A stretch of 64,000 bases of DNA, from IMG/VR virus record IMGVR_UViG_3300046808_001241, positions 153,183 to 217,182 of that record. The stretch is one strand, 5' to 3'. Under the pieces are notes generated by a model, which saw only the letters and a list, made by a program, of their open reading frames with translations, ran no database searches and was not told where the DNA came from. The stretch comes from a virus. Below, one piece after another: positions 4,538 through 23,917 of this stretch. Each line of letters opens with the position of its first letter. Within the stretch, counting starts at the first letter, position 1. The translations under genes were made by a program, and so were the position numbers.

Positions 4538-7500
4538 TTAATTATCGCTTATTAAGCGTTTTGTTAAAATGTTGTTGAACATAGTTTCTACCAAACCATT
4601 GTCACCATACCACTCTTCATAGGAGGAAAGTGTATAATCAACGGTTGTGAAATCAGAGTCCCAATTGATTATATTGCCTTTATAACCAATCTGCTCTTCG
4701 TTGTACTCAAAGAAGTAATAATTGTCAAAAATCGGTTCCCTTAATCCTTCAACTTGTATAGCAGAAAGTTGATATTTTAGATTCGGAGAAGGAAGCTCGA
4801 TCGACATATTGTTGATGGTTAAAATGTCTCGTTCGTTTTGAATATCGATTAAGATATTTCCAGCACTTAAAGGAGCAACGTAAACCAGTTGATATTTGTC
4901 GCTGTAAATACGATCTTTTGCAAAAATATACTGACCTGCAGAAACAAATGATGCTTCAGACAACACAGGACCTATGTTTTTGTTTAAATCTGTTTCATAA
5001 ACAACCTGGCCTCTTAATCTGTGTTTTGGTACTGAAAATAGATTTATTAATCTGCTTACTTCTACAGGAAAGTCTGTTCCGTAAATGTTAGCTGGTACAG
5101 ATAATTGTTCTGCAAACGATAATAACTGTGTTATTTCAGCCGTTTCGAAGTCTCCATGAGTCTGTACGAAGTTTGCAATTCTTTCATAGGCCACTCTTCC
5201 GATATCTTCTTTTGTAAGAATTCCGTCTCCAGCAACAGCTGACAAAAATTCATCAAATAAGATAGGATTTTCTTTTAGAATTTCCGGAAGAGCAAGAGAT
5301 TTAAAATACCCAGCACAATCAAACTCTTCATTAACTTTTGCTATATTGAATGAATTGTTTAGATCATACACATTAAACGGGGTAGAAGATCCTCTTACAG
5401 GTAATGAACTATAAGAACCACTATATTTTTGATACCATCTGTTTCCACTCCAATCTCCACCTGCTTGAGCCGACCTTACCTTTTCTTCAGGCAGAGCGCT
5501 TATATAATTTGTTCCACCTATTACTACATAATTTGTGTTTGCAGTAGGAATTAATTCAAATGTGTTCAAACTGCCAAATGGATCAGAAGTTTTAAATACA
5601 AACAACACGTTTTCTTCCGAATCCACAACCCAAACGCGATCAAAAACATCTACTGTCAACCCTCCCCAAATTTCGTTTTCATAATAGGCTTTATGAATAT
5701 CTTCCGGAGTATATCCAGAAACTTCTTCAAACGATTTTGTTGCTCCGTAAAATTTGTAGTGAGTAAATGTTTCGGTTGTATTATTATATTTGCTTAAGAA
5801 ATTGTAGCCGTGGGTAACCCATAGATTGTTGCTACGATCCAACATTATATAGCTTGGTCTGATAGCTCCCTCTATTGTCTTCAGGAGCGTTCCGTCAGTT
5901 CCTGAATGAAGTTGAATTTTATTTGAGTCCCGACAAGCAACCCAAACATTGTTTTCCGGATTTATTGTTAATGAAATAGGAACACTTGTTAAAGGAAGAG
6001 AAGTAGCTCTAAACAACTCTGCTCCAGTGTCTCCATCAAACTTGATCAAAGCAGAGCTGATTGTATGGGAATAACAAGCCCATGCATCGTTGTTGGAGTC
6101 AGTTTCAACTATTGGAGGAGAAACTAGCATCGAACCTTCTGCAGATAAACCAAGTGTTGTGTTTGGGGTGGCTGATAAAACTAAGTTCAATGAAGAATCT
6201 AGCTTTAACAAAACTTCCCTGCTATATAAAGAAATCCAGATATTACTAAAACGGTCAATTGAAATATGAGAAGGGACGTTGTAATCATCTCCAGTATAGC
6301 TAGAAATTGGAATCGTTTGATTAATTCCTAGTCCTCCATTCAAAACATAAAGAACGTCTTGATCCGCGTCTGTTGCATATAGCTTGTTTTGAATTGGATC
6401 AAAAGCCATTCCATAAACGTTCGAAGTACCAGACAATTGATAGTTTGCCAAATTTGCTGCAGTTAAAACAGGAACGCTAACATAAGAAGCAGAGCCCTCT
6501 ACAAGAATTCCCAAATCTTTATAGTATTGAATGTTTCCGCAAATTGTTGAAGAATATGTAACGATATCAATTCTGTTTATTGTGCTAACATTTGGATGGG
6601 AAACATAAACATTCGCATAAATTGGATATCCATCCGGAAAAGAAAAAGCTAAAGTAGAGCTTCCGGTTTCTTGGTTTGCAGCAATTGTGCTTACTGCAAC
6701 TACCACAGAAGAACTAAGAGGAGATAAAGGTGTAATTGTAGTAAAAAGATAACCGCTGGTAGTATTATCTTGTTCGTCAAATGCTTTGAAATACAAAGGG
6801 GCTTCAGAAGAGTTATAAGAAGTACCGTCGACTTCTACTGTATAATAATCTTCAGGAATTAGAGAACCTCCTTCTGCAGACAATACGAGTTTGACTTTGT
6901 TTACACCTCCAAGTTCGTTTGTTCTTGGATACGAAAGAACTTTTGACGGTTGAGTTGATGCATTACCGAACTCGTCAAGCAACGTAGGGTCAAATTCGCA
7001 TGTAATCATCACAGGAATTGGTACGTTTGACCATTTGATTGGATGAATGTCGCTGAGATAGTTTTCTGTGACTTTTAGTCTTGTTGGAATAGCATCATTG
7101 ATCTGCCAAGAAATTACAGCACGAGCAACTTCTGAATTGCTATAACTATAATACGGATATCTTAAAGACTCCGGAGGATATGTAAATCTTTCCGTGCTTA
7201 GCGTTGCAGCTAATAAAAGAGGACAGCCGCCTCCGGAGGCTAAGTCATCAACATAATAAAATGAAGCACTACCAGAAACAGCAACGACTTTATTATTTCT
7301 ATAAATTGGATTGGTTTTTAATACAATAGGACCATCTAAGTCTTGATCAGTTTCGGCATCGACAAACCTCCAACGAGGAACCAAAAATTCCCATTTTTCT
7401 GGAACAGCATAGCTGGGTACTGAGTTTGTGTTAAATGCTTGCAAGACGATTGATAAAGGCTGATCAATTTTTGATGACGTCAATTCAATAGTAAAGGGAG

Positions 7501-7822
7501 AATCAGATTTAACGCTTGGAGTTCCATAAGCACTCGGAAGCTGAGTAAAAATCAAAACATCTCGAAAGATGTAATCAACATCAACATCCGTTTGATCGGT
7601 TAATAAAAACCCTTCGTCCGTCCAAGCTGATAAACCAACTCTATAAACTCCAGGAAATCCATATGTAGCTGTGACAGAAGGAGTGTTATATTCAAATAAT
7701 CCATTTCCTAGATCCCATGAAAATTGAGTATATTCGGCTGGAAATTCTGCTGTGTATATGAAATCTGTTGCATATACATTGCCTTTTTGAGATTCCGGAG
7801 TAACTGTGAAATAGTTAGGCAT
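4538..7822 (-). CDS. Baseplate-associated protein with PKD-like domain and NHL-type beta-propeller
   Basis: The protein is 1094 residues long. Residues about 20-90 look like a PKD/Ig-like domain (FSWDLGNGLFEYNTPSVTA, then YGFPGVYRVGLSAWT). The middle (about 450-740) carries repeated motifs such as VYGMAFDPIQNKLYATDAD, HISIDRFSNIWISLY, LTINPENNVWVACRD and IMLDRSNNLWVTHGY, which match blades of an NHL/SMP-30-type propeller. The C-terminal 250 residues are unrelated to these folds and contain a helical stretch. Its start codon abuts the stop of the gp6-like gene, so it belongs to the baseplate operon. A structural baseplate component with carbohydrate- or protein-binding modules is inferred. No enzymatic motif was seen. 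Confidence 0.7.
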   Translation of the reverse strand: MPNYFTVTPESQKGNVYATDFIYTAEFPAEYTQFSWDLGNGLFEYNTPSVTATYGFPGVYRVGLSAWTDEGFLLTDQTDVDVDYIFRDVLIFTQLPSAYGTPSVKSDSPFTIELTSSKIDQPLSIVLQAFNTNSVPSYAVPEKWEFLVPRWRFVDAETDQDLDGPIVLKTNPIYRNNKVVAVSGSASFYYVDDLASGGGCPLLLAATLSTERFTYPPESLRYPYYSYSNSEVARAVISWQINDAIPTRLKVTENYLSDIHPIKWSNVPIPVMITCEFDPTLLDEFGNASTQPSKVLSYPRTNELGGVNKVKLVLSAEGGSLIPEDYYTVEVDGTSYNSSEAPLYFKAFDEQDNTTSGYLFTTITPLSPLSSSVVVAVSTIAANQETGSSTLAFSFPDGYPIYANVYVSHPNVSTINRIDIVTYSSTICGNIQYYKDLGILVEGSASYVSVPVLTAANLANYQLSGTSNVYGMAFDPIQNKLYATDADQDVLYVLNGGLGINQTIPISSYTGDDYNVPSHISIDRFSNIWISLYSREVLLKLDSSLNLVLSATPNTTLGLSAEGSMLVSPPIVETDSNNDAWACYSHTISSALIKFDGDTGAELFRATSLPLTSVPISLTINPENNVWVACRDSNKIQLHSGTDGTLLKTIEGAIRPSYIMLDRSNNLWVTHGYNFLSKYNNTTETFTHYKFYGATKSFEEVSGYTPEDIHKAYYENEIWGGLTVDVFDRVWVVDSEENVLFVFKTSDPFGSLNTFELIPTANTNYVVIGGTNYISALPEEKVRSAQAGGDWSGNRWYQKYSGSYSSLPVRGSSTPFNVYDLNNSFNIAKVNEEFDCAGYFKSLALPEILKENPILFDEFLSAVAGDGILTKEDIGRVAYERIANFVQTHGDFETAEITQLLSFAEQLSVPANIYGTDFPVEVSRLINLFSVPKHRLRGQVVYETDLNKNIGPVLSEASFVSAGQYIFAKDRIYSDKYQLVYVAPLSAGNILIDIQNERDILTINNMSIELPSPNLKYQLSAIQVEGLREPIFDNYYFFEYNEEQIGYKGNIINWDSDFTTVDYTLSSYEEWYGDNGLVETMFNNILTKRLISDN

Positions 7823-9633
7823 TAAATGACTTTATCTGTTTCTTGTTCCAAGACTTCGATTTGCGAAAAAACACTCTGTAAGTTATCGTAATACACAAAT
7901 TCAAAATCTTTCATTTCTATATCATTGACAATCGATTGTTTGTCTAAATCCGGATACGAAGGATTCCACATAAACAAAGAAAGTCCATTGAACGTTTCGT
8001 CTGTATCCAACCTTCTTGTAATAATTTTCGAAACTCCATCAACTGCTAGAATACTTTTAGCTAAAGAGCTGTATTCAAAAAGACCTCCAAGAGTCGCATT
8101 TGTAGGATTGAAGAAGTCTTTAAAGATCGTTTCTACTTCTGATGCAATAGATCTAGTGGATCTTTTATTGTTCGTTGAACGGATAATTTCCAATCTACAA
8201 AAATCTTTATCAGAAACAACTACTTCGTCATTAGTTTTAACACCAATGGATACTGCTTTAAACACTGGATCTAAAAACGTAATTTCAGAAGTAAGAGTCT
8301 TGAGCGAATCAATGTTTGATTTAATGATTTCTTTTTGAGCAGGCAAAAGGTACTTTAATGTTGATTGCTGACTAACTTTTGGAACACAGCAAATATAAAC
8401 GTTATTGAAATTACAGCTATCTGCATAAGCAATTTGATTCAACAAAATCTGCCTAAATGAAGTTGGAGAAACTTGTATGTCATTAAAATATTTTAAATAA
8501 TCGCTGGTATAATCCCAGTTTGAAAACACTCTTACGTCGTTAATAAAGTTGGAGAAGTTTGTTCTAATGAAGGTTTCGTAGTCTTCTTTTGTTACTAAGC
8601 GATATTGGCTCTTGAAGTTTGCAGGAGCATTTTTTCTAATATCATCTGCTGTTTCAATATCTTTTGGAACGGTTGAGCCCACAACATTATTGAAAAACAA
8701 ATTGTTTAATTGGTTTGTGTTTAAGTATGTGAACTGTTCGTTGTTTACTTCAGTCAGTAACGGTCCAAATGTTGAAGTATTAAAGATTGACTTCGTTCCA
8801 GTAGAAATTTCCCCAGGTCCGATAATTCCTTGCTGGCCAGAGCTTTGCAAATAATAAATTGCTACTTGATCGTTTTCTTCAAGCTTTCTTCCATTAATAC
8901 CATCCCCGAAAGTAACTTCATAAAGAAGATCAGAATTTAATCGTTTTTCGAACGATCTGGAAAAAGCTTGTTCCGTATAAAGTGTTGGAACGTTTGCATA
9001 TTGCACCCAACGATTTTGACGAGACTCATACACATATACATCGATGTTAAAGTGATCCACAAAAATGTTTGAAACGTTAATTGTAACAACTTCATTAGGA
9101 TCTCCGCTAGCTCTATATAATGGATTTTCACGATAAATTCCTTGGTATAAAAGTTTTTTGTTTGTTAAGTCTGTAAGTTCTACTGCTTGCGGGTCTGTTG
9201 ATATTGCAAACGAGACGTCTTCGTTAAACGAAAATGGAACTCCAGCAACAGTCAAATAGGTATAACGAGGTATTGTATAAAATCCTGCATTAAGATTTTG
9301 TGCCGAACATTGAAAAGCAAGAGTCGAAGTCTGATAGCCAATTGGTTTGTAGTCAAGAAGCTTTACAATTCTGCTAATGTTTTCATATAACTGAGCTTCA
9401 GTAAAGATCGACTCCGTACTAGTTCTGTTAAGATAGAACATCAAAGTGTTAAAAGAATATGAAATAATATCAATAATAGCAGCTAGATTTGAACCAATAT
9501 AGTTTTGATCGGTATAGATGCCCTGATCATTCATTCTTTGAATAATCAAATTACGAAGCGATATAGCATCAAATGCTGCGTAGCTATCTTTAGGTAGCGG
9601 ATATTCGTTTGTTGGTACTATTTCGTTGGCCAT
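7822..9633 (-). CDS. Baseplate wedge protein, T4 gp6-like (baseplate J family)
   Basis: The 603-residue protein has the layout of gp6/baseplate J-like wedge proteins. It has a conserved N-terminal region (YIGSNLAAIIDIISYSFNT, then LYENISRIVKLLDYKPIGY), a middle with FGDGINGRKLEENDQV, and a region YRLVTKEDYETFIRTNFSN typical of the family. In T4, gp6 forms the inner wedge ring around the central hub. It follows the gp25-like gene by one base and overlaps the next gene at its stop, as in T4-like baseplate operons. A gene of this type about 600 residues long is normal for the family. High confidence in the family, moderate in the exact T4 equivalent. Confidence 0.88.
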   Translation of the reverse strand: MANEIVPTNEYPLPKDSYAAFDAISLRNLIIQRMNDQGIYTDQNYIGSNLAAIIDIISYSFNTLMFYLNRTSTESIFTEAQLYENISRIVKLLDYKPIGYQTSTLAFQCSAQNLNAGFYTIPRYTYLTVAGVPFSFNEDVSFAISTDPQAVELTDLTNKKLLYQGIYRENPLYRASGDPNEVVTINVSNIFVDHFNIDVYVYESRQNRWVQYANVPTLYTEQAFSRSFEKRLNSDLLYEVTFGDGINGRKLEENDQVAIYYLQSSGQQGIIGPGEISTGTKSIFNTSTFGPLLTEVNNEQFTYLNTNQLNNLFFNNVVGSTVPKDIETADDIRKNAPANFKSQYRLVTKEDYETFIRTNFSNFINDVRVFSNWDYTSDYLKYFNDIQVSPTSFRQILLNQIAYADSCNFNNVYICCVPKVSQQSTLKYLLPAQKEIIKSNIDSLKTLTSEITFLDPVFKAVSIGVKTNDEVVVSDKDFCRLEIIRSTNNKRSTRSIASEVETIFKDFFNPTNATLGGLFEYSSLAKSILAVDGVSKIITRRLDTDETFNGLSLFMWNPSYPDLDKQSIVNDIEMKDFEFVYYDNLQSVFSQIEVLEQETDKVI

Positions 9634-10773: not shown

Positions 10774-10971
10774 ATGTTCAAAAATATTTACTACAAAACC
10801 TTAGTTTGGACTTCTTATCAAATTGGAGATATTTTGAGTAATTTTGAATATGAATGGAGTTATAACCTCTATCAAAAATGCATGAGCTTTTCTTTAGATT
10901 GCGATGAGCATATTGATTTTTGGTTTTGGAAAGAACCTCCTTTGAACGACGATGAGGATGACAATTTATGA
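10774..10971 (+). CDS. Small acidic-tailed protein upstream of nrdB
   Basis: A 65-residue protein rich in Tyr, Trp and Phe with a strongly acidic C-terminus (PPLNDDEDDNL). Its stop overlaps the nrdB start by 4 nt (ATGA), which implies translational coupling to nrdB. Function unknown. Confidence 0.6.
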   Translation: MFKNIYYKTLVWTSYQIGDILSNFEYEWSYNLYQKCMSFSLDCDEHIDFWFWKEPPLNDDEDDNL

Positions 10972-11960
10972 AAACACAAAACAGACCTAAAATATTTGAA
11001 GAACAGATAGCAAGAAAGCCAAATCATTTTTCTTGGACGGACTCGTTCGTCGAGAGTATTCAAAACGGATTTTGGACGCATCGGGAATTTAACTTCAAAT
11101 CAGACATTCAGCAATTTAAAGTTAATTTGACCGATCAAGAAAGAGATATTATTATCCGCACGCTTTCTGCTATTGGACAAATTGAAATTGCTGTAAAAAC
11201 ATTCTGGGGAAAGCTCGGAGAGAATTTGAGATTTCCAAATTTTTCTGACCTAGGTTATACTATGGCCCACACAGAAGTCATTCACAATAATGCTTATGAG
11301 CGTCTTATTGACGTATTAGGCTTAAGTGAAGTGTTTGAAGAAAACTTAAAACTTGATTGGATTCAAGGACGGGTTAACTATCTTCGTAAATACACTCACA
11401 AGTTTTATAAAGATTCAAAGAAACAATATCTTTATGCTATTATCTTGTTCACGTTGTTTGTTGAGAACGTTTCGTTGTTTAGTCAGTTCTATATCATTAA
11501 CTGGTTTGCAAGGTTCAAAAACGTTCTTAAAGATACAGACCAACAAGTCAAATACACACGCAATGAAGAAAACCTCCATGCTTTGATTGGCATTAAAATT
11601 ATCAACACTATTAGAGAAGATTATCCAGAAATGTTCGATGAAGAGCTGGAACAAAAGATTCTTCACGAGGCAGAAGAGGCTTATAAGTCAGAAGCAAAGA
11701 TTGTGGATTGGATGATTAACGGCATTCAAGAAGAAGGATTGACTGCTCCAATCCTCAAAGAATTCATTAAGAACAGAATTAATGAATCGTTAACTCAAAT
11801 TGGTTTTAAAACAGCATTTGAAGTTGATAAAGATCTTTTAAAGACTACAATGTGGTTTAATGAAGAATTGCTTGGAGAGAACGCGACAGATTTTTTTCAT
11901 AGTCGGCCCACTTCATATGCAAAGAACAATCAATCATTTTCTGAAGATGACTTGTTTTAA
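10968..11960 (+). CDS. nrdB: Class I ribonucleotide reductase, small (radical-bearing) subunit
   Basis: The 330-residue protein is the beta subunit that makes the tyrosyl radical used by NrdA to reduce ribonucleotides. Expected di-iron ligands are visible: Glu73, Glu103 and His106 (in HTEVIHNNAY), Glu166 (LFVENVSLF) and Glu201/His204 (NEENLHA). Tyr110 is at the radical position. The C-terminal tail, NNQSFSEDDLF, is the flexible peptide that docks on NrdA. It is preceded by a coupled small gene and followed by a homing endonuclease gene whose own last 11 codons repeat this exact tail. nrdA lies about 2.8 kb downstream, so the pair is split by inserted genes. Confidence 0.95.
   Translation: MKTQNRPKIFEEQIARKPNHFSWTDSFVESIQNGFWTHREFNFKSDIQQFKVNLTDQERDIIIRTLSAIGQIEIAVKTFWGKLGENLRFPNFSDLGYTMAHTEVIHNNAYERLIDVLGLSEVFEENLKLDWIQGRVNYLRKYTHKFYKDSKKQYLYAIILFTLFVENVSLFSQFYIINWFARFKNVLKDTDQQVKYTRNEENLHALIGIKIINTIREDYPEMFDEELEQKILHEAEEAYKSEAKIVDWMINGIQEEGLTAPILKEFIKNRINESLTQIGFKTAFEVDKDLLKTTMWFNEELLGENATDFFHSRPTSYAKNNQSFSEDDLF
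11925..11960 (+). repeat. Direct repeat copy 1: nrdB 3' end
   Basis: These 36 nt, ending in the nrdB stop codon, match 13683-13718 at 34 of 36 positions. Both encode NNQSFSEDDLF and the stop. Confidence 0.95.
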
Positions 11961-11997
11961 GTTATAAGCTGACTTTACTCGAAAAAGTACACGACTT

Positions 11998-12011
11998 AGA
12001 TTAAGTAATCT
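11998..12011 (+). promoter_or_regulatory. Small hairpin just upstream of the endonuclease start
   Basis: AGATTA-AG-TAATCT (an AGATT/AATCT stem with a 4-nt loop) ends 3 nt before the ATG at 12015. It would cover the ribosome binding region of the homing endonuclease gene and could keep its translation low, as reported for several T4 homing endonuclease genes. Confidence 0.35.
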
Positions 12012-12014
12012 TGT

Positions 12015-13718
12015 ATGTTTACACGCGTATTTGATACAAAGTCTTTTATCGATAAATCCAAACAGAAATTTAGTTCCAAATTTAGTTACGAGGATACGGT
12101 ATATACAAAATCAACAAATAGACTTAACGTAATTTGCAGCATTCACGGCAAAGTCGAAATTCTTCCAGGAGTGCACTTGTCTGGAGCGGGATGCCCGAGC
12201 TGTTCGAGGGCGTTAAATGGCTTGAGTCATAGAATGGACACTGAAACGTTTATTAAAAGAGCTCAAGCTAAACATAATAATTTTTACAATTACGACAAAG
12301 CAACATTTCAAGGTAGTTTAAAAAACCTAATAGTCACTTGTCCTGTGCACGGAGATTTCGCAATTCAAGCAAGTCGACATATAAATAACGGAGCTGGTTG
12401 CTCAAAGTGTGGTTTTATTCGTCGTGTAAAAAAATGCACTACCCCACTCGATGTGTTTTTAGAAAAGACATCCAAAAAACCAAATTTCGAAAATTATGAT
12501 TTCAGTTTAGTTAACTTTAAAAATAAAAAAGAATGGGTTACCGTTATTTGTAAAAAGCACGGAGAGTATAAAACTAAACCTAGATATATTGATAATAGTG
12601 CGTTTTTCGGTTGTAGTCAGTGCAAATGCGAAAGCAGAACTTTCACTACTGATACTTTTATCGAAAAAGCTAAACAAATACATGCCGAAAGATATCTTTA
12701 TGATAGAGTCGAATATAAAGATTCACACACAGAGGTGACACTAATCTGTAAAACTCACGGAGATTATATTTGCAAACCTTATGTACACTTGGCGGGAGGA
12801 GGCTTTTGTCCAAGCTGCACTAACAATGGTGTAAGTTCTTATGAGAGAGAAATAAAATTATTTTTGCAACAAAACGGCATCAGCATAGAATCTTCTTTTA
12901 GAGGATTTGACGGATTGAAGGAAATAGATTTAATTTGTCACAACAAAAAAATAGGAATTGAAGTTAATGGGTTATATTGGCACTGTGACTTATACAAAGA
13001 AAAAAACTTTCATAAACACAAAACGGAAACTTTGTTAAAGCAGGGATATCGACTAATTCATATATTTGAAGACAGCTGGCTTCTCAAAAAAGACGTTTGT
13101 TTGTCAATTTTATTGAATGCGTTTAATAAAACTCCCAATAAAATTTACGCAAGAAAGTGTGAACTAAAACTAATTTCAGATAAAGAGTCAAAACATTTTT
13201 TAAATGCAAACCACGTACAAGGTTCTTGCGTTTCTAAAATAAGATATGGTTTATTCTATAATAACGAGCTTGTATCGGTTATGACCTTCGGCTCTAACAG
13301 AAAAAATTTGGGCAATAAATCAAAACCAAATGAATACGAACTACTAAGGTTTTGTAACAAAACCTACACCAATGTCGTTGGAGGAGCTTCTAAACTGTTT
13401 GCTTCTTTCATCAAACAACACAACCCTCGGAAAATAACAAGCTATTGCAATAGAAGTATCGGAACGGGAAATCTATACAAGCAGCTTGGATTTCAGTTTT
13501 TATACAATACGCCTCCAAACTATTTTTATGTCAGAGGAAGTACAAGATTGCCGAGATTTAAATTTCGAAAAGATGTGTTAATTAAACAAGGACATGATAA
13601 AAACAAAACAGAAGCTTGCATTATGAAGGAATTAGGGTATAATAGAATTTATGACTGTGGAAGCATGAAATTTGAATGGACAAATAATCAATCATTTTCC
13701 GAAGATGACTTGTTTTAA
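12015..13718 (+). CDS. Homing endonuclease, zinc-ribbon repeats plus EDxHD/Vsr-like nuclease, with nrdB-tail C-terminus
   Basis: The protein is 567 residues long. The first 270 residues hold four repeats of the type Y..........V.CxxHG.......H......GCxxC, each with paired cysteines and a HG motif, typical of DNA-binding modules in phage endonucleases. Next is a Vsr/EDxHD-like nuclease core: EIDLICHNKKIGIEVNGLYW, then HKHKTETLLKQGYRLIHIFE and DSW. The remaining 200 residues are the domain commonly joined to this nuclease (ELLRFCNKTYTNVVGGASKL). The last 11 residues, NNQSFSEDDLF, are identical to the end of NrdB. It lies between nrdB and nrdA as a free-standing mobile gene. I see no intron core, so this looks like an intronless insertion that duplicated the nrdB end. 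Confidence 0.85.
   Translation: MFTRVFDTKSFIDKSKQKFSSKFSYEDTVYTKSTNRLNVICSIHGKVEILPGVHLSGAGCPSCSRALNGLSHRMDTETFIKRAQAKHNNFYNYDKATFQGSLKNLIVTCPVHGDFAIQASRHINNGAGCSKCGFIRRVKKCTTPLDVFLEKTSKKPNFENYDFSLVNFKNKKEWVTVICKKHGEYKTKPRYIDNSAFFGCSQCKCESRTFTTDTFIEKAKQIHAERYLYDRVEYKDSHTEVTLICKTHGDYICKPYVHLAGGGFCPSCTNNGVSSYEREIKLFLQQNGISIESSFRGFDGLKEIDLICHNKKIGIEVNGLYWHCDLYKEKNFHKHKTETLLKQGYRLIHIFEDSWLLKKDVCLSILLNAFNKTPNKIYARKCELKLISDKESKHFLNANHVQGSCVSKIRYGLFYNNELVSVMTFGSNRKNLGNKSKPNEYELLRFCNKTYTNVVGGASKLFASFIKQHNPRKITSYCNRSIGTGNLYKQLGFQFLYNTPPNYFYVRGSTRLPRFKFRKDVLIKQGHDKNKTEACIMKELGYNRIYDCGSMKFEWTNNQSFSEDDLF
13683..13718 (+). repeat. Direct repeat copy 2: nrdB 3' end fused to the endonuclease gene
   Basis: This is the second copy of the nrdB 3' end, in frame with the endonuclease. 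The two differences from copy 1 are both synonymous, which suggests the peptide is under selection or the duplication is not very old. Confidence 0.95.
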
Positions 13719-13721
13719 AGT

Positions 13722-14489
13722 ATGAGTAAAAGTCATTCTTGGCTTTCAGACCAACTTAAAGGTTTTCCTAACTTTGCAAAAATGTTTCGAGATGTTCTTG
13801 CAGAGGAATTGCAGCAAACCTATTTGGAAGAAGGTTTGATTGCGTCTTGGGATATTGAAAAATTAATCAAAAGAATATCAAACATTATTGGAGACAAAAT
13901 TTTAGAAGTACAAAAAACTACTCTTCCAGACTTTTTAAAAAATACCAACTACGGAGAAGTCTTTACTGTTAATATATTTTTAAAAGAAAAACTAACAAAA
14001 GAAGAAACAAATCAAGTAGACCAACTTTTGGATTTGTTTGGGTATACTAATGCTTTGTGGATTGAACCAGACGGACTTCAGTTGCAGCTAGAACCAAGGT
14101 ATCCAGTCAAACTTAACGAACTTATAAAACAAACTTCTGACAACTATCTTTTCCATATAACTCAAAAGAAATCGCTAGACAAGATTAAAGAAATAGGATT
14201 AGCTCCAAGACCTTCAGAAACTAAATTTGAACATCCGGGAAATAGAATTTATTTGTTGTGGCTGCCAGCAGTACAAAATAAAGGGTTGATTGTGAACGCT
14301 CTTGTTAAACAGTTAGCAAACAACAAAAAGCTGGAAGAAAAAGATTTTGCTGTTATGATGCTAAAATATAACCCTAAATACGACTACTACCTAGATGATA
14401 CTACAACATTGCTCGATCAAAAAATTATAGCAATGTTCACCACAAATAATATCAACCCAAAAGAAATTGTTAAAATTATAAATTTATGA
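13722..14489 (+). CDS. ADP-ribosyltransferase-fold-like protein, paralog 1 of 3
   Basis: A 255-residue protein homologous to the two tandem genes at 31058 and 31792. The shared pattern is: an N-terminal helical part with EEGLI; a middle ending in QLEPRYPVKL; then YLFHITQKKSLDKIKEIGLA; HPGNRIYLL about 25 residues later; and a C-terminal part YYLDD...FTTNNINPKEI. The order His-Thr, GL.P, R-x-Y, then 'I.P..I' resembles DarT/DUF4433 or RNA 2'-phosphotransferase folds that use NAD. The fold call is by eye and catalytic residues are not proven. It starts 3 nt after the endonuclease stop and overlaps the next gene by 4 nt. A host-directed modification enzyme is a hypothesis only. Confidence 0.6.
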   Translation: MSKSHSWLSDQLKGFPNFAKMFRDVLAEELQQTYLEEGLIASWDIEKLIKRISNIIGDKILEVQKTTLPDFLKNTNYGEVFTVNIFLKEKLTKEETNQVDQLLDLFGYTNALWIEPDGLQLQLEPRYPVKLNELIKQTSDNYLFHITQKKSLDKIKEIGLAPRPSETKFEHPGNRIYLLWLPAVQNKGLIVNALVKQLANNKKLEEKDFAVMMLKYNPKYDYYLDDTTTLLDQKIIAMFTTNNINPKEIVKIINL

Positions 14490-14754: not shown

Positions 14755-16404
14755 ATGACTGAAAAATACTATTGGCTTAACAATGACTCGCGAAAATTTC
14801 TTGAGCGTGGATATCTTCTTGAAGAAGAAACTCCGGAACAACGAATTCGAGACATTGCAGAAGCTGCTGAAAAATATCTTGGTATAAAAGGGTTTGCTGA
14901 TAAATTCGAAGAATACGTTGCAAAAGGTTTCTACAGCTTAAGCTCGCCTGTATGGTCCAACTTTGGAAGAAAACGTGGTCTTCCTATAAGTTGTTTTGGA
15001 TCTTACATATCCGATACAATGGAATCGATTTTGCATAAAGTTTCAGAAGTAGGTATTATGACAAAACACGGAGGAGGAACTTCTGCATACTTTGGAGCAA
15101 TTCGAGGAAGAGGAACTACAATCTCTTGTGGAGGAGAATCTACAGGATCTGTACATTTTATGGAGCTTTACAACAAGCTAATGAATGTCGTTTCGCAAGG
15201 TAATGTTCGTAGAGGCTCATTTGCTGCATATCTTCCCATCGATCACAAAGATATTGAAGAGTTTCTTGAGATTCGTTCAGAAGGACATGACATCCAAGAA
15301 ATGTCGTTTGGTGTATGTGTTTCTGATCAATGGATGAAAGACATGGTTGATGGAGACAAAGACAAACGCAAGATTTGGTCCAAAGTCATTAAAAAGCGGT
15401 TCGAATCTGGTTATCCTTATATCTTTTTTTCTGATACAGCCAATAATAACGCTCCACAAGTTTATAAAGACAAAGGACTAAAGATTCACAATTCCAATCT
15501 TTGCACGGAGATTTTTTTATCCAACTCAGAAGAGGAATCTTTTGTTTGTGATCTATCGTCACTTAATCTCGAAAAGTGGGATGAAATCAAAAATACAGAT
15601 GCTGTTCAAACATTAGTGTACTTCCTCGACGCTGTGATGTCAGAGTTTATTGACAAAACAGAAGGCATGCAATTCATGGAAGCTCCAAGAAAGTTTGCGA
15701 TTAACCAAAGAGCTCTTGGTGTAGGTGTTCTTGGATGGCATTCGCTGCTCCAAACTAAGATGATTGCTTTTGAGTCATTTGATGCGAAGATACTTAATGT
15801 GGATGTTTGGAAGACAATACGGGAACGAGCTGACAAAGCCACAGAAGAACTTGCTGGTCTTTTTGGAGAACCAGAATTGCTTAAGGGCTATGGAAGAAGG
15901 AATACAACAACTCTTGCCATTGCACCCACAACCAGCTCAGCGTTTATCTTGGGCCAAGTATCCCAGTCAATTGAGCCCTATAATTCAAACTATTATGTTC
16001 GCGACTTGGCTAAAGGTAAGTTTTCATACAAAAATCCATACCTTAAATCACTGCTAAAACAAAAGGACAAAGATAATGATGAAACATGGTCTTCGATTCT
16101 TGCTCATGGTGGTTCTGTTCAGCATCTTGATTTCTTATCAGATAATGAAAAAGACGTATTCAAAACTTTTGGAGAGCTTTCCCAAAAAGAAATCGTCATC
16201 CAAGCGGCGCAAAGGCAAAAATACATTGATCAAGGTCAATCCTTAAACGTAATGATTCCTCATGATGCTAAACCAAAAGACGTTAATGAGCTTTTGATAT
16301 TTGGTTGGGAACAGGGAATCAAGAGTTTCTACTACCAAAAATCTACCTCGCCCTCACAAAAGCTAGCTAGATCGATTCTTACCTGCAAATCTTGTGAAGG
16401 GTAA
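14755..16404 (+). CDS. nrdA: Class I ribonucleotide reductase, large (catalytic) subunit
   Basis: At 549 residues this is a short form without the N-terminal ATP-cone, so it probably lacks dATP overall-activity inhibition, a common adaptation in phages. Active-site residues are visible: Cys80 (PISCFGSY), the thiyl radical centre Asn248/Cys250/Glu252 (NSNLCTEI), Cys265 (FVCDLSSLNL), the Tyr526-Tyr527 radical relay (SFYYQKST), and the C-terminal redox pair Cys544/Cys547 in TCKSCEG. It works with NrdB encoded upstream. The following membrane protein gene overlaps its stop by one base, so both are in one operon. I see no AGGAG-like site before the ATG. Confidence 0.95.
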   Translation: MTEKYYWLNNDSRKFLERGYLLEEETPEQRIRDIAEAAEKYLGIKGFADKFEEYVAKGFYSLSSPVWSNFGRKRGLPISCFGSYISDTMESILHKVSEVGIMTKHGGGTSAYFGAIRGRGTTISCGGESTGSVHFMELYNKLMNVVSQGNVRRGSFAAYLPIDHKDIEEFLEIRSEGHDIQEMSFGVCVSDQWMKDMVDGDKDKRKIWSKVIKKRFESGYPYIFFSDTANNNAPQVYKDKGLKIHNSNLCTEIFLSNSEEESFVCDLSSLNLEKWDEIKNTDAVQTLVYFLDAVMSEFIDKTEGMQFMEAPRKFAINQRALGVGVLGWHSLLQTKMIAFESFDAKILNVDVWKTIRERADKATEELAGLFGEPELLKGYGRRNTTTLAIAPTTSSAFILGQVSQSIEPYNSNYYVRDLAKGKFSYKNPYLKSLLKQKDKDNDETWSSILAHGGSVQHLDFLSDNEKDVFKTFGELSQKEIVIQAAQRQKYIDQGQSLNVMIPHDAKPKDVNELLIFGWEQGIKSFYYQKSTSPSQKLARSILTCKSCEG

Positions 16405-21152: not shown

Positions 21153-22529
21153 TTAAAATTTATTATTAAACGGAGAAGTAACAAAATTCATATCAAGAGA
21201 AACCGTGTCATATGTATTTGTTGGATCGTAGATGCGGGCGGTTGTGCTGTCATGTGGAACGCAAAATACTTTTCCGTTTTGCATGAGTACTGCACCAAAT
21301 CCTGACCCTCCTCCAGTAAAAACTGCACTTGAAGTGATTAAAGTATCCGATACAGGATCGTATATCTTGGCATTTGTTGTAGATGCGTAGGATAAAGGTG
21401 GAATGAACACTTTTCCATTAGGAAGAATAACTCCACCAGCAGCAAACAAACCTCCTGGATATGTTCCGCTTGGTACAGTAGTTGTATCCGTTATAGGATC
21501 ATAAATCCTAGCAGTAGTGTTAGAAGCAGGAACGCAAAAAACTTTTCCGTTAGGTAATAGAACTGCTCCTAGAGAAGAACTGCTTGATGCAAATGTTCCG
21601 CTTGGAGTAGTTAAGGTGTCTGTAACAGGATCATAAATTCTTGCAGTAGGACCATCTTCAGGATTGCAAAATACTCTACCGTCTGAAAGAAGTACTGCTC
21701 CCGAAAAAGAATATGCTGGAAACGTTCCACCCGCAATAGTTGATGAATTTGTTGACGGATTATAAATTACAGATGGTCCAGAAGTACCCATGTGTCTTAG
21801 ACAATAAACTCTACCGTCTGGAAGTAATACTCCTCCATAATAATTATCAGGAAAACTTCCACCAGCAATACTTACGGTATCTGTAGTGGGATTGTATATT
21901 CTAGGACTATTACCTTGATTTGGGATACAAAATACTCTTCCATCTGGAAGCAAAACTCCCCCATTCGAAAAATAACCTCCTGGATACGTTCCGTTCGGAA
22001 CGGTTGTAGTATTGGTTATTGGATCATATATTCTAGCTGTAGTGCTAAAGCAAGGAACACAAAACACTCTTCCGTCTCGCATTAGAACTCCTCCAATAAA
22101 AGCGGACCCACCCGGAAAGGTCCCATTTGGAGTAGTCAATCGATCCCCAACAATCACATCGTTATTCCTAATAGTATCTAACAAGGCAGCTCTATAATTG
22201 ACCCATCCAGACCCAATTTGATTATTTGTAGCGCTTGTTTGAGGAGTTGAGTTCCAAGTTGGAAATGGTCTTGCTCCTCCCCATTGCGTCCCATTGAATG
22301 TCATCATCTGACCAGAAGAAGCTCCAGAAACGCTAACAACTGCTGATAAGACTTTTGAAGTGCTTTGATAAGTCAAATCAATATTAGCAGAATCAACAAT
22401 ATTTAAACTTCCTCCAGTAGCAGATAAGCTTAAAAGGTTTGCAGAAAGTGTTTGGAAAGCTCCATTGAGATATTCAAGAGAGTCCCCAATACATTGATCT
22501 TCAGAAATTGGAATGCCAGCGAGTGTCAT
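21153..22529 (-). CDS. Seven-repeat beta-propeller adhesin, paralog 1
   Basis: A 458-residue protein. Residues 1-35 hold the shared module (GIPISEDQCIGDSLEYLNGA). A short beta segment follows (IDLTYQSTSKVLSA), then seven repeats of about 46 residues. Each is built as GGVLLPDGRVFCIP plus TARIYDPxTDT, a Kelch-like propeller pattern. The conserved end TARIYDPTNTYDTVSLD closes the ring. Two near-copies follow immediately downstream. In the middle blades the Asp/Gly turn residues are kept while surface positions vary. Host-surface binding on the tail is inferred; an enzymatic role is not indicated. Confidence 0.8.
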   Translation of the reverse strand: MTLAGIPISEDQCIGDSLEYLNGAFQTLSANLLSLSATGGSLNIVDSANIDLTYQSTSKVLSAVVSVSGASSGQMMTFNGTQWGGARPFPTWNSTPQTSATNNQIGSGWVNYRAALLDTIRNNDVIVGDRLTTPNGTFPGGSAFIGGVLMRDGRVFCVPCFSTTARIYDPITNTTTVPNGTYPGGYFSNGGVLLPDGRVFCIPNQGNSPRIYNPTTDTVSIAGGSFPDNYYGGVLLPDGRVYCLRHMGTSGPSVIYNPSTNSSTIAGGTFPAYSFSGAVLLSDGRVFCNPEDGPTARIYDPVTDTLTTPSGTFASSSSSLGAVLLPNGKVFCVPASNTTARIYDPITDTTTVPSGTYPGGLFAAGGVILPNGKVFIPPLSYASTTNAKIYDPVSDTLITSSAVFTGGGSGFGAVLMQNGKVFCVPHDSTTARIYDPTNTYDTVSLDMNFVTSPFNNKF

Positions 22530-22534
22530 GTTAG

Positions 22535-22542
22535 TATTTATG
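22535..22542 (-). promoter_or_regulatory. Late promoter octamer CATAAATA, 5 nt before the start codon
   Basis: The octamer includes the TAA stop of the upstream gene and is followed by five bases and the ATG at 22529, so stop, promoter and start are packed into 16 nt. Confidence 0.6.
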
Positions 22543-23917
22543 AGCCAAAGTTTACATATGGACTAGTAACAAAATTCATATCAAGAGAAACTGATTGATA
22601 CGTCGAAGTTGGATCGTAAATTCTTGCTGTAGTACCGTTGTGCACAAACACTTTTCCGTTTTGCATTAAAGTTAATCCACCATATGATACAGAGCTCATT
22701 CCTATATCTACTGAGCGACTCGTATCTGTCAATGGATCGTAAATGTGAGCGCCACCACCAAATCCAACTATTAATACTTTTCCGTTTGGAAGAACACAGG
22801 CATCTCCAGAACCAAAATTAGAGCCCCCACTTGGTGTAGATACTGTATTGGTTATTGGATCATATATTCTTGCTGGAGCTGGGCTTGTATCACTCGCTGT
22901 AGTATAACTAGTGCAAAAAACTTTTCCGTTTGGAAGTAAAACCACCTTTGACGTAAATTGAGGCAGCCCTCCAACGGTTGTAGTCGTTAATGTAGTGACA
23001 GGGTCATATATTCTTGCTGTACCGTCACCTGCAAAAATAGGCACAAATATTTTTCCGTCAGGAAGAAGTGTAGCTGATTGAGCATATGCTCCTCCGGAAA
23101 CGTAGGCATAAATTGGCGTAGCAGGCACGAAAACAGTTCCTGTAACAGGATCCCAAATATGTGCATAGCCACTATAACCCGGAATAGTAAATATTTTTCC
23201 ACTAGGTAAAACTATAGCAACTACTCCTTGACTCGTTAACCCAGACCAAGATCCAGAATTTGTAACTGTTTCGGTTACATAATCCCAAATAGCTGCTTGA
23301 GGAGCTGTATGTGGATTTACAAATACTCTTCCGTCTGGAAGCAAACAAGCTCCAATATATTCCGGACCTCCAAACGTTCCACCTGGAACTGTAATGGCAT
23401 TTGTAGAAGGATTATAAATACGAGCTGTAGTTGTATTTACTGGAGGTAAAAATACTCTTCCGTCTTTAAGTAGAATTCCTCTAGACCATAATCCATTTAT
23501 TGTTCCGCTTGGAGTAGTCAATCTATCCCCAACAATGTCCCTATTATTCCTAATAACATCAGTCAGAGCTCTTTGATAATTTAAAAATCCGCTATTGCCA
23601 ATTTGGTTATTAACAGCGCTTGTTTGAGGAGTTGAGTTCCATGTCGGAAATGATCTTGCTCCAACAAATGCTGACAAAGTGCTGCTATAAGTCATTCTTT
23701 GACCGTCTTGAGCAGTCAGTGCTAAAGTTGCTGTCAAGGTCTTTGTTGAAGAATTATAATCCAAATCAATAGTTGAAGAATCTTTGGCAGACAACGCATT
23801 AAAGCTTGCAGAAACGCTATAAACGTTTGTAGAAAGAGTTTGAAAAGCGCTATTAATATATTGAAGAGAATCGCTTATGCACTGATCTTCTGAAATTGGA
23901 ATGCCATTAAGAACCAT
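22538..23917 (-). CDS. Seven-repeat beta-propeller adhesin, paralog 2
   Basis: A 459-residue paralog of its neighbours. The N-terminal module reads GIPISEDQCISDSLQYINSA, with the usual Gly of CIGDSL replaced by Ser. The linker IDLDYNSSTKTLTATL is shared. The seven blades are more diverged than in the other two copies: VLLPNGKVFCTS, ACLLPDGRVFVNP and IVLPSGKIFTIP. The end TARIYDPTSTYQSVSLDMNF is conserved. Divergence concentrated in the blades with conserved ends fits receptor-driven change of a tail adhesin. Confidence 0.8.
   Translation of the reverse strand: MVLNGIPISEDQCISDSLQYINSAFQTLSTNVYSVSASFNALSAKDSSTIDLDYNSSTKTLTATLALTAQDGQRMTYSSTLSAFVGARSFPTWNSTPQTSAVNNQIGNSGFLNYQRALTDVIRNNRDIVGDRLTTPSGTINGLWSRGILLKDGRVFLPPVNTTTARIYNPSTNAITVPGGTFGGPEYIGACLLPDGRVFVNPHTAPQAAIWDYVTETVTNSGSWSGLTSQGVVAIVLPSGKIFTIPGYSGYAHIWDPVTGTVFVPATPIYAYVSGGAYAQSATLLPDGKIFVPIFAGDGTARIYDPVTTLTTTTVGGLPQFTSKVVLLPNGKVFCTSYTTASDTSPAPARIYDPITNTVSTPSGGSNFGSGDACVLPNGKVLIVGFGGGAHIYDPLTDTSRSVDIGMSSVSYGGLTLMQNGKVFVHNGTTARIYDPTSTYQSVSLDMNFVTSPYVNFGS

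Follow-up and report, generated by a model that had tools for sequence, protein, structure and literature searches.

The nrdB locus and its duplicated gene end

The window, i.e. the whole stretch of 64 kb that was analysed, belongs to a virus record of 217 kb. On its plus strand, nrdB (10968-11960) encodes a full-length class Ia ribonucleotide reductase small subunit of 330 aa (Ribonuc_red_sm, E = 3.5e-44; PHROG 86) that ends in ...AKNNQSFSEDDLF followed by its own stop. A spacer of 54 bp (11961-12014), which had no match to the post-nrdB DNA of the three closest nrdB relatives L001-L003, separates the nrdB stop from the start of an ORF at 12015-13718. This ORF encodes a protein of 567 aa ending in ...MKFEWTNNQSFSEDDLF and represents a free-standing homing endonuclease gene (HEG) of the EDxHD/Hef-like type. 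Further downstream on the same strand lie gene X (13722-14489; 255 aa, no family) and nrdA (14755-16404), encoding the class Ia ribonucleotide reductase large subunit (Ribonuc_red_lgC, E = 7.3e-97).

The last 11 residues, NNQSFSEDDLF, and the subsequent stop are common to NrdB and the adjacent endonuclease. On the DNA level, positions 11925-11960 and 13683-13718 are identical at 34 of 36 bases, and both mismatches (AAC/AAT and TCT/TCC) are synonymous, as described in the initial annotation. A chance similarity of the two tails was ruled out, since the second-best forward match to the 36-base tail within the 64-kb window reached 23/36 and the top score in 100 first-order Markov shuffles was 25/36. 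A weaker repeat of 44 bp (11925-11968 and 13683-13726; 39/44, 88.6%) crosses the stop and reaches the start codon of the next gene, whose ATG in the downstream copy corresponds to ATA in the upstream one. The HEG is flanked by the two gene-end copies, one of which restores nrdB. Because the nrdB reading frame is complete ahead of the insert, no removal of an intron or intein is needed to restore the gene.

Identity and C-terminal boundary of the endonuclease

The endonuclease contains DUF723 zinc-binding repeats (PF05265) and a Vsr-like nuclease domain (residues ~266-358; 12810-13088) with its best PDB sequence match to 3r3p (E = 1.4e-6), an entry listed as 'Mobile intron protein'. Within this domain, D305, E316, G319, H323, H333 and K336 are invariant among 54 homologues. 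The protein also matched PHROG families named HNH or homing endonuclease, and MTES_1575 with E = 6e-5, a value under the curated cut-off. Together, the repeats, the nuclease domain and the PHROG families argue for the EDxHD-type endonuclease that had been proposed for this ORF. PDB 3r3p is the EDxHD enzyme I-Bth0305I, with which the window HEG shares the nuclease domain; I-Bth0305I is an intron protein, whereas the window HEG has no intron and additionally carries the zinc-binding repeats and a Mom/GNAT-like domain. The latter, at residues ~375-511 (13137-13547; PF25680, E = 1.7e-4; PHROG 1384, E = 2.9e-7; Foldseek 8bv8, E = 2.5e-7), resembles phage Mu Mom and GNAT acetyltransferases and is common to Hef-like HEGs.

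Ten aligned homologues stop just past the motif YDCGxxKFxW, which corresponds to residue 555 in the window HEG. In an AlphaFold2 model built with 54 sequences (mean pLDDT 91), the final strand spans residues 550-556, while the last seven residues (561-567) have a pLDDT of 47 and are disordered. As the homologues end at about 555 and the modelled fold ends at 556 before passing into disorder, the 11-residue tail is predicted to be an add-on after a complete endonuclease fold. A misread end of the HEG was rejected since the tail-less homologues stop at the same place.

nrdB junctions in related phages

In the insert-free relative L003, gene X starts three bases past the nrdB stop and a single tail is present; the duplication did not pre-exist in this relative, which had been named as the comparison that matters for an insertion near the nrdB end. 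The window nrdB is 86% identical to that of L003 on the protein and 79% on the DNA level. Window positions 10963-11960 align to L003 4187-5181, and 13682-14479 align without a break to L003 5145-5942 (85%). The L003 tail is aligned twice in this way, and therefore the copy in the HEG is the one that keeps the ancestral neighbour gene X. This copy also agrees with L002 and L003 at both differing bases (AAT, TCC), which are two sites only. Given that nrdB is directly followed by gene X in L003, the tail of the HEG (13683-13718) can be read as the displaced original nrdB 3' end, with the last 11-12 codons of the HEG being derived from nrdB tail DNA. The present nrdB tail (11925-11960, with the weak extension to 11968) would be a copy beside the gene body that arrived with the insert as part of a cassette, a foreign origin suggested by position and two bases. 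With a DNA identity of only 79% in nrdB, L003 is not a near-isogenic empty site, unlike L247 in the tail sheath case described below.

The closest relative of the HEG (L116, 46% identical) sits between nrdB and nrdA and overlaps each of the two genes by a short stretch. It has its native end, KFEWKNT followed by the stop, and no duplication, and represents a tail-less state at the same nrdB locus. The presence of an EDxHD/Hef-like HEG at nrdB is variable: it was found in the window and in L116, and not at 70 other nrdB junctions. Among 72 nrdB ends, a second tail copy occurred in the window only, one of the two ends that are followed by a HEG.

At the end of NrdB, strong conservation of the peptide extends over about 80 related phages. 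Its exact 11-codon pattern was present in 57 IMG/VR stretches and, after deduplication, all matches except the window HEG were NrdB ends; an endonuclease at another locus ending in the peptide, which had been considered as a possible objection to the insertion, was not found among these exact matches. A donor phage carrying this HEG after nrdB was not found by profile search among the Hef-like HEGs of IMG/VR, the closest HEG being 46-47% identical. A two-sequence profile search for nrdB-linked HEGs yielded only L116 and two distant matches, and a search for gene X relatives, which could have revealed further empty nrdB sites, found none.

The window nrdB was 97% identical to L001 in one comparison and 89% in another. 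A tract of 240 bp (11148-11387) is 97-100% identical to L001 and the flanking nrdB segments are mostly 80-93% identical; the tract is likely to reflect a recent exchange, perhaps around a cleavage site. The nrdB genes of L002 and L003 are ~98% identical and are followed by unrelated genes three bases after the stop (L002:6990-7245 and L003:5181-5952), which marks the nrdB 3' end as an apparent boundary of cargo exchange. Gene X resembles, by eye, an ORF upstream of nrdB in L003 (3456-4202; HIT..GL.P, GNRIYL). In L003, nrdB may thus be flanked by two paralogues of one family that is possibly ADP-ribosyltransferase-like.

The same architecture at tail sheath and baseplate wedge genes

Hef-like HEGs were gathered from IMG/VR and the DNA flanking each of them was checked for repeats. 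At E <= 1e-6, flanking repeats were detected for 14 of 103 HEGs and for two of 138 other long ORFs (p = 0.0003). Both exceptions among the controls are tandem paralogous ORFs on the minus strand of the window (21153-23917) that start with M[VT]L[NA]GIPISEDQCI; no other control ORF gave a strong match. Ten of the 14 HEG repeats are end copies of the neighbouring gene. L133 and L135, which look like tandem HEG paralogues, L104 with a duplicated terminator, and the ambiguous L143 were left out of this group. In L104 (Yersinia phage phiR1-37), the Hef-like HEG is flanked by two copies of a terminator hairpin (2852-2895 and 4703-4747) with 87% identity.

Besides the window, eleven loci have copies of a neighbouring gene end flanking a HEG, nine at the tail sheath gene and two at the baseplate wedge gene. 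The duplication at nrdB is hence part of a recurrent pattern across three genes. Copies of the sheath 3' end were found in L186, L187, L160 and its near-duplicate L159, L174, L157, L153 and L137 (the HEG of L137 lying in opposite orientation); L325 has a decayed sheath relic (KFIITPIGDSFKKD) right after the HEG stop. The 5' end of the wedge gene is copied in L117 and L139. The cases comprise about six independent HEG lineages, with L186/L187 and L157/L174/L159/L160 as sets of close relatives. The sheath-end copies span four HEG lineages and are in frame in two of them: the HEGs of L157 and L153 end in frame within the sheath tail (..KPTGASFENI and ..KFIDVGA, each followed by the stop), parallel to the window. 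Of the 78 sheath 3' ends compared, 26 have a HEG downstream and six of these have a second tail copy, which was absent from all 52 ends without a HEG (p = 0.0009).

The sheath gene also allowed a closer comparison with an empty site. The insert-free junction of L247 is 98% identical to L186 and contains a single copy of the 64-bp repeat that flanks the L186 HEG. L187, which carries the same HEG as L186, has the L247 allele in its distal copy (AAAAT-TTTTAATCACC, -TTTT) and another allele in the proximal copy that completes the sheath gene (AAAATAACTTAATCACC, AACT). Because the distal copy corresponds to the empty-site allele and the proximal one differs, the alleles indicate that the proximal end came with the element and that the distal one belonged to the recipient. 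Distal copies can drift, as seen from an E to K exchange in L187 and the lost frame in L325. In L186, the distal copy is identical to the proximal one, so that the insertion model requires a later gene conversion there.

The wedge-gene HEGs of L117 and L139 are 50% identical and end the native remnant at the same codon (RQYY). As two HEGs that differ this much share it, this boundary suggests a cleavage site or a preferred joining site. About 90% of the sampled HEGs have no gene-end duplication, and therefore other junction outcomes are commoner. A second Hef-like HEG of the same virus (L102; G000:C1:104569-105477) is located after the putative major capsid gene, and no copied gene end was found at this paralogue. 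In L001, a HEG directly ahead of nrdA (7672-8804) looks GIY-YIG-like by eye, with no more than weak matches to DNA-binding families in PHROG. Upstream of this HEG, an nrdA 5' end is represented by about 50 bp, and nrdA itself starts with a different N-terminus, possibly a mirror-image case in another HEG family.

Origin of the duplicated nrdB end

An insertion of the HEG near the nrdB end, which supplied a replacement end and displaced the native tail, is very probably the explanation for this arrangement. An insertion that left a full nrdB and a tailed endonuclease had been put forward as the simplest reading, and it gains support from the insert-free L003 and from the same architecture at other genes. 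A free-standing EDxHD/Hef-type HEG would have entered nrdB about 12 codons before the stop, bringing along a replacement 3' end that was placed beside the gene body, so that NrdB remained complete. The 12 codons that originally closed the gene in the recipient would have ended up beyond the HEG where, being in frame by chance, they became the final codons and the stop of the endonuclease. The trigger was presumably a double-strand break at or near the nrdB junction, followed by a one-sided invasion of a donor carrying gene and HEG via homology in the gene body. The repair would be anchored in nrdB because post-nrdB DNA differs even between the close relatives L002 and L003. As the downstream flanks are non-homologous in these phages, the other end was probably joined into the remaining tail by illegitimate or microhomology joining. 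Phage HEGs act via double-strand-break repair. One-sided homing, with homology at one side only and illegitimate, microhomology-based joining at the other, is documented for T4 (PMC2988022). The tailed C-terminus of the endonuclease would be a neutral scar and, since relatives did likewise at other genes, the tail is best taken as a mark of the landing site of the HEG and not as a new function.

A course in two steps would differ from this insertion only in the trigger, because the end products are otherwise identical. The HEG would have come to lie after nrdB in another phage, and a later, cutting-independent recombination with a genome carrying nrdB and gene X would have fused the end of the HEG with the second tail. 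The hypervariable cargo behind nrdB, as in L002 and L003, is in line with such a course, as are the L001-like nrdB (89%) and the L003-like gene X (85%) of the window and the 240-bp nrdB tract nearly identical to L001. It is nonetheless rather unlikely, as gene-end duplications are enriched at HEGs compared to other ORFs and the junction codon is common to the divergent wedge HEGs L117 and L139, both of which point to endonuclease-driven breaks. If the nrdB tail had first been duplicated locally in tandem and the HEG had then entered between the repeats, two tails flanking the HEG would also result, and short duplications of this kind do arise in phage genomes. However, no second tail was present at the HEG-free junctions (70 nrdB ends and 52 sheath ends) and the L187 copies are different alleles, the distal one matching the empty allele, which makes this order of events highly improbable.

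The tails of class Ia small subunits bind the large subunit. The initial annotation had suggested as a more interesting reading that the endonuclease uses the tail to bind NrdA or to be regulated by it. In such a case, the endonuclease would be recruited to the ribonucleotide reductase, inhibit it or be regulated by it, and the duplication would be kept by selection. The two copies indeed agree in all 11 residues, which form the C-terminus and for which exposure and disorder are predicted, and the peptide is the one conserved at the NrdB end. Both base differences could, however, have arisen in nrdB, and for this reason they are uninformative on selection acting on the HEG copy. No second HEG with this tail was present among the exact matches in the 57 viral stretches, the sister HEGs of L157 and L153 end in sheath tails, and copies that are out of frame undergo decay (L187, L325). 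Moreover, the HEGs of L157 and L174 are 93.8% identical, and the former reads in frame into the tail copy while the latter stops just before it. Since a HEG with ~94% identity stops before the tail, the tail is judged to be dispensable. A selected interaction of the tail is disfavoured because L157 and L174 differ and the tails vary with the neighbouring gene, related HEGs carrying the tail of whichever gene they adjoin. A functional NrdA-binding tail was thus rejected as the leading reading and is hardly credible.

Relation to known systems and implications

The closest precedent is a group of mobile ORFs in fungal mitochondria at which gene C-termini are duplicated (PMC3630166). Foreign C-terminal ends of atp6, atp9, cox2 and nad3 are carried by these ORFs, and the native end persists downstream of them (PMC3630166). 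As in the window, an endonuclease ORF occupies the 3' region of an essential gene (atp6 in Allomyces; atp6, atp9, cox2 and nad3 in Glomus), the element brings a replacement C-terminus, and the displaced native C-terminus is found downstream and still matches a close relative; the mobile ORF is sometimes in frame with the host gene (PMC3630166). The fungal systems are mitochondrial, with LAGLIDADG or GIY-YIG enzymes and duplications of ~50-280 bp (PMC3630166), whereas the phage cases involve a phage-borne EDxHD HEG, copies of 30-111 bp and both 3' and 5' gene ends. In the window, the displaced native end additionally becomes the C-terminus of the endonuclease, unlike in the fungal ORFs. The comparison links intronless homing in phages to gene-end replacement in fungal mitochondria. 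A literature search of openly licensed papers found no phage report of a gene-end duplication flanking a HEG, and the duplication seems to be a variant of HEG insertion that has gone unremarked in phages.

It is a tentative and rather doubtful proposition that cassettes regenerating a gene end are a general, selected strategy of free-standing phage HEGs. If true, replacement 3' or 5' ends of the target would let HEGs settle within the coding part of essential genes with no intron or intein involved, and the remaining short direct repeat would also permit exact loss of the HEG. The ends of nrdB, tail sheath and baseplate wedge genes, and perhaps of nrdA with the GIY-YIG HEG of L001, would then have been replaced repeatedly by such cassettes. 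Copies of gene ends reveal the entry point of a HEG and which copy is native, and they show how free-standing HEGs move between phages with differing downstream genes. An apparently functional peptide tag becomes a datable homing scar, and the identity of a C-terminal peptide should not be read as evidence of an interaction. As a curiosity of a single locus the duplication is of modest interest; for homing research, the interest lies in its recurrence at three genes.

Among phage systems, the free-standing T4-type HEGs mobE and hef (the latter of phage U5) are likewise located at the nrdA/nrdB locus, and cleavage of nrdB is reported for both Hef and MobE (PMC2988022). They are intergenic, and a gene-end duplication is not mentioned for them in the available text of that source (PMC2988022). 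In mycobacteriophage Omega, an HNH insertion (gene 51) gave lysin A a new 3' end, a similar remodelling of the neighbour's 3' end upon HEG acquisition that was ascribed to repair errors or to the context of a distantly related donor (PMC3706429). Unlike in the window, 35 bp were lost there and a new end was gained without a retained duplicate (PMC3706429). A HEG inside essential coding sequence is also known from split genes, namely Aeh1 nrdA with mobE and T4 gene 60 with mobA (PMC2988022). Two polypeptides result from the split in these cases (PMC2988022), whereas in the window the gene end is restored and only a remnant displaced. Among the relatives of the window, nrdA seems to bear an intein in L005 (6997-8995) and L003 (5949-6779). 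In L005, the nrdA frame stops inside the intein and an HNH-like ORF follows, which resembles a fractured-gene arrangement.
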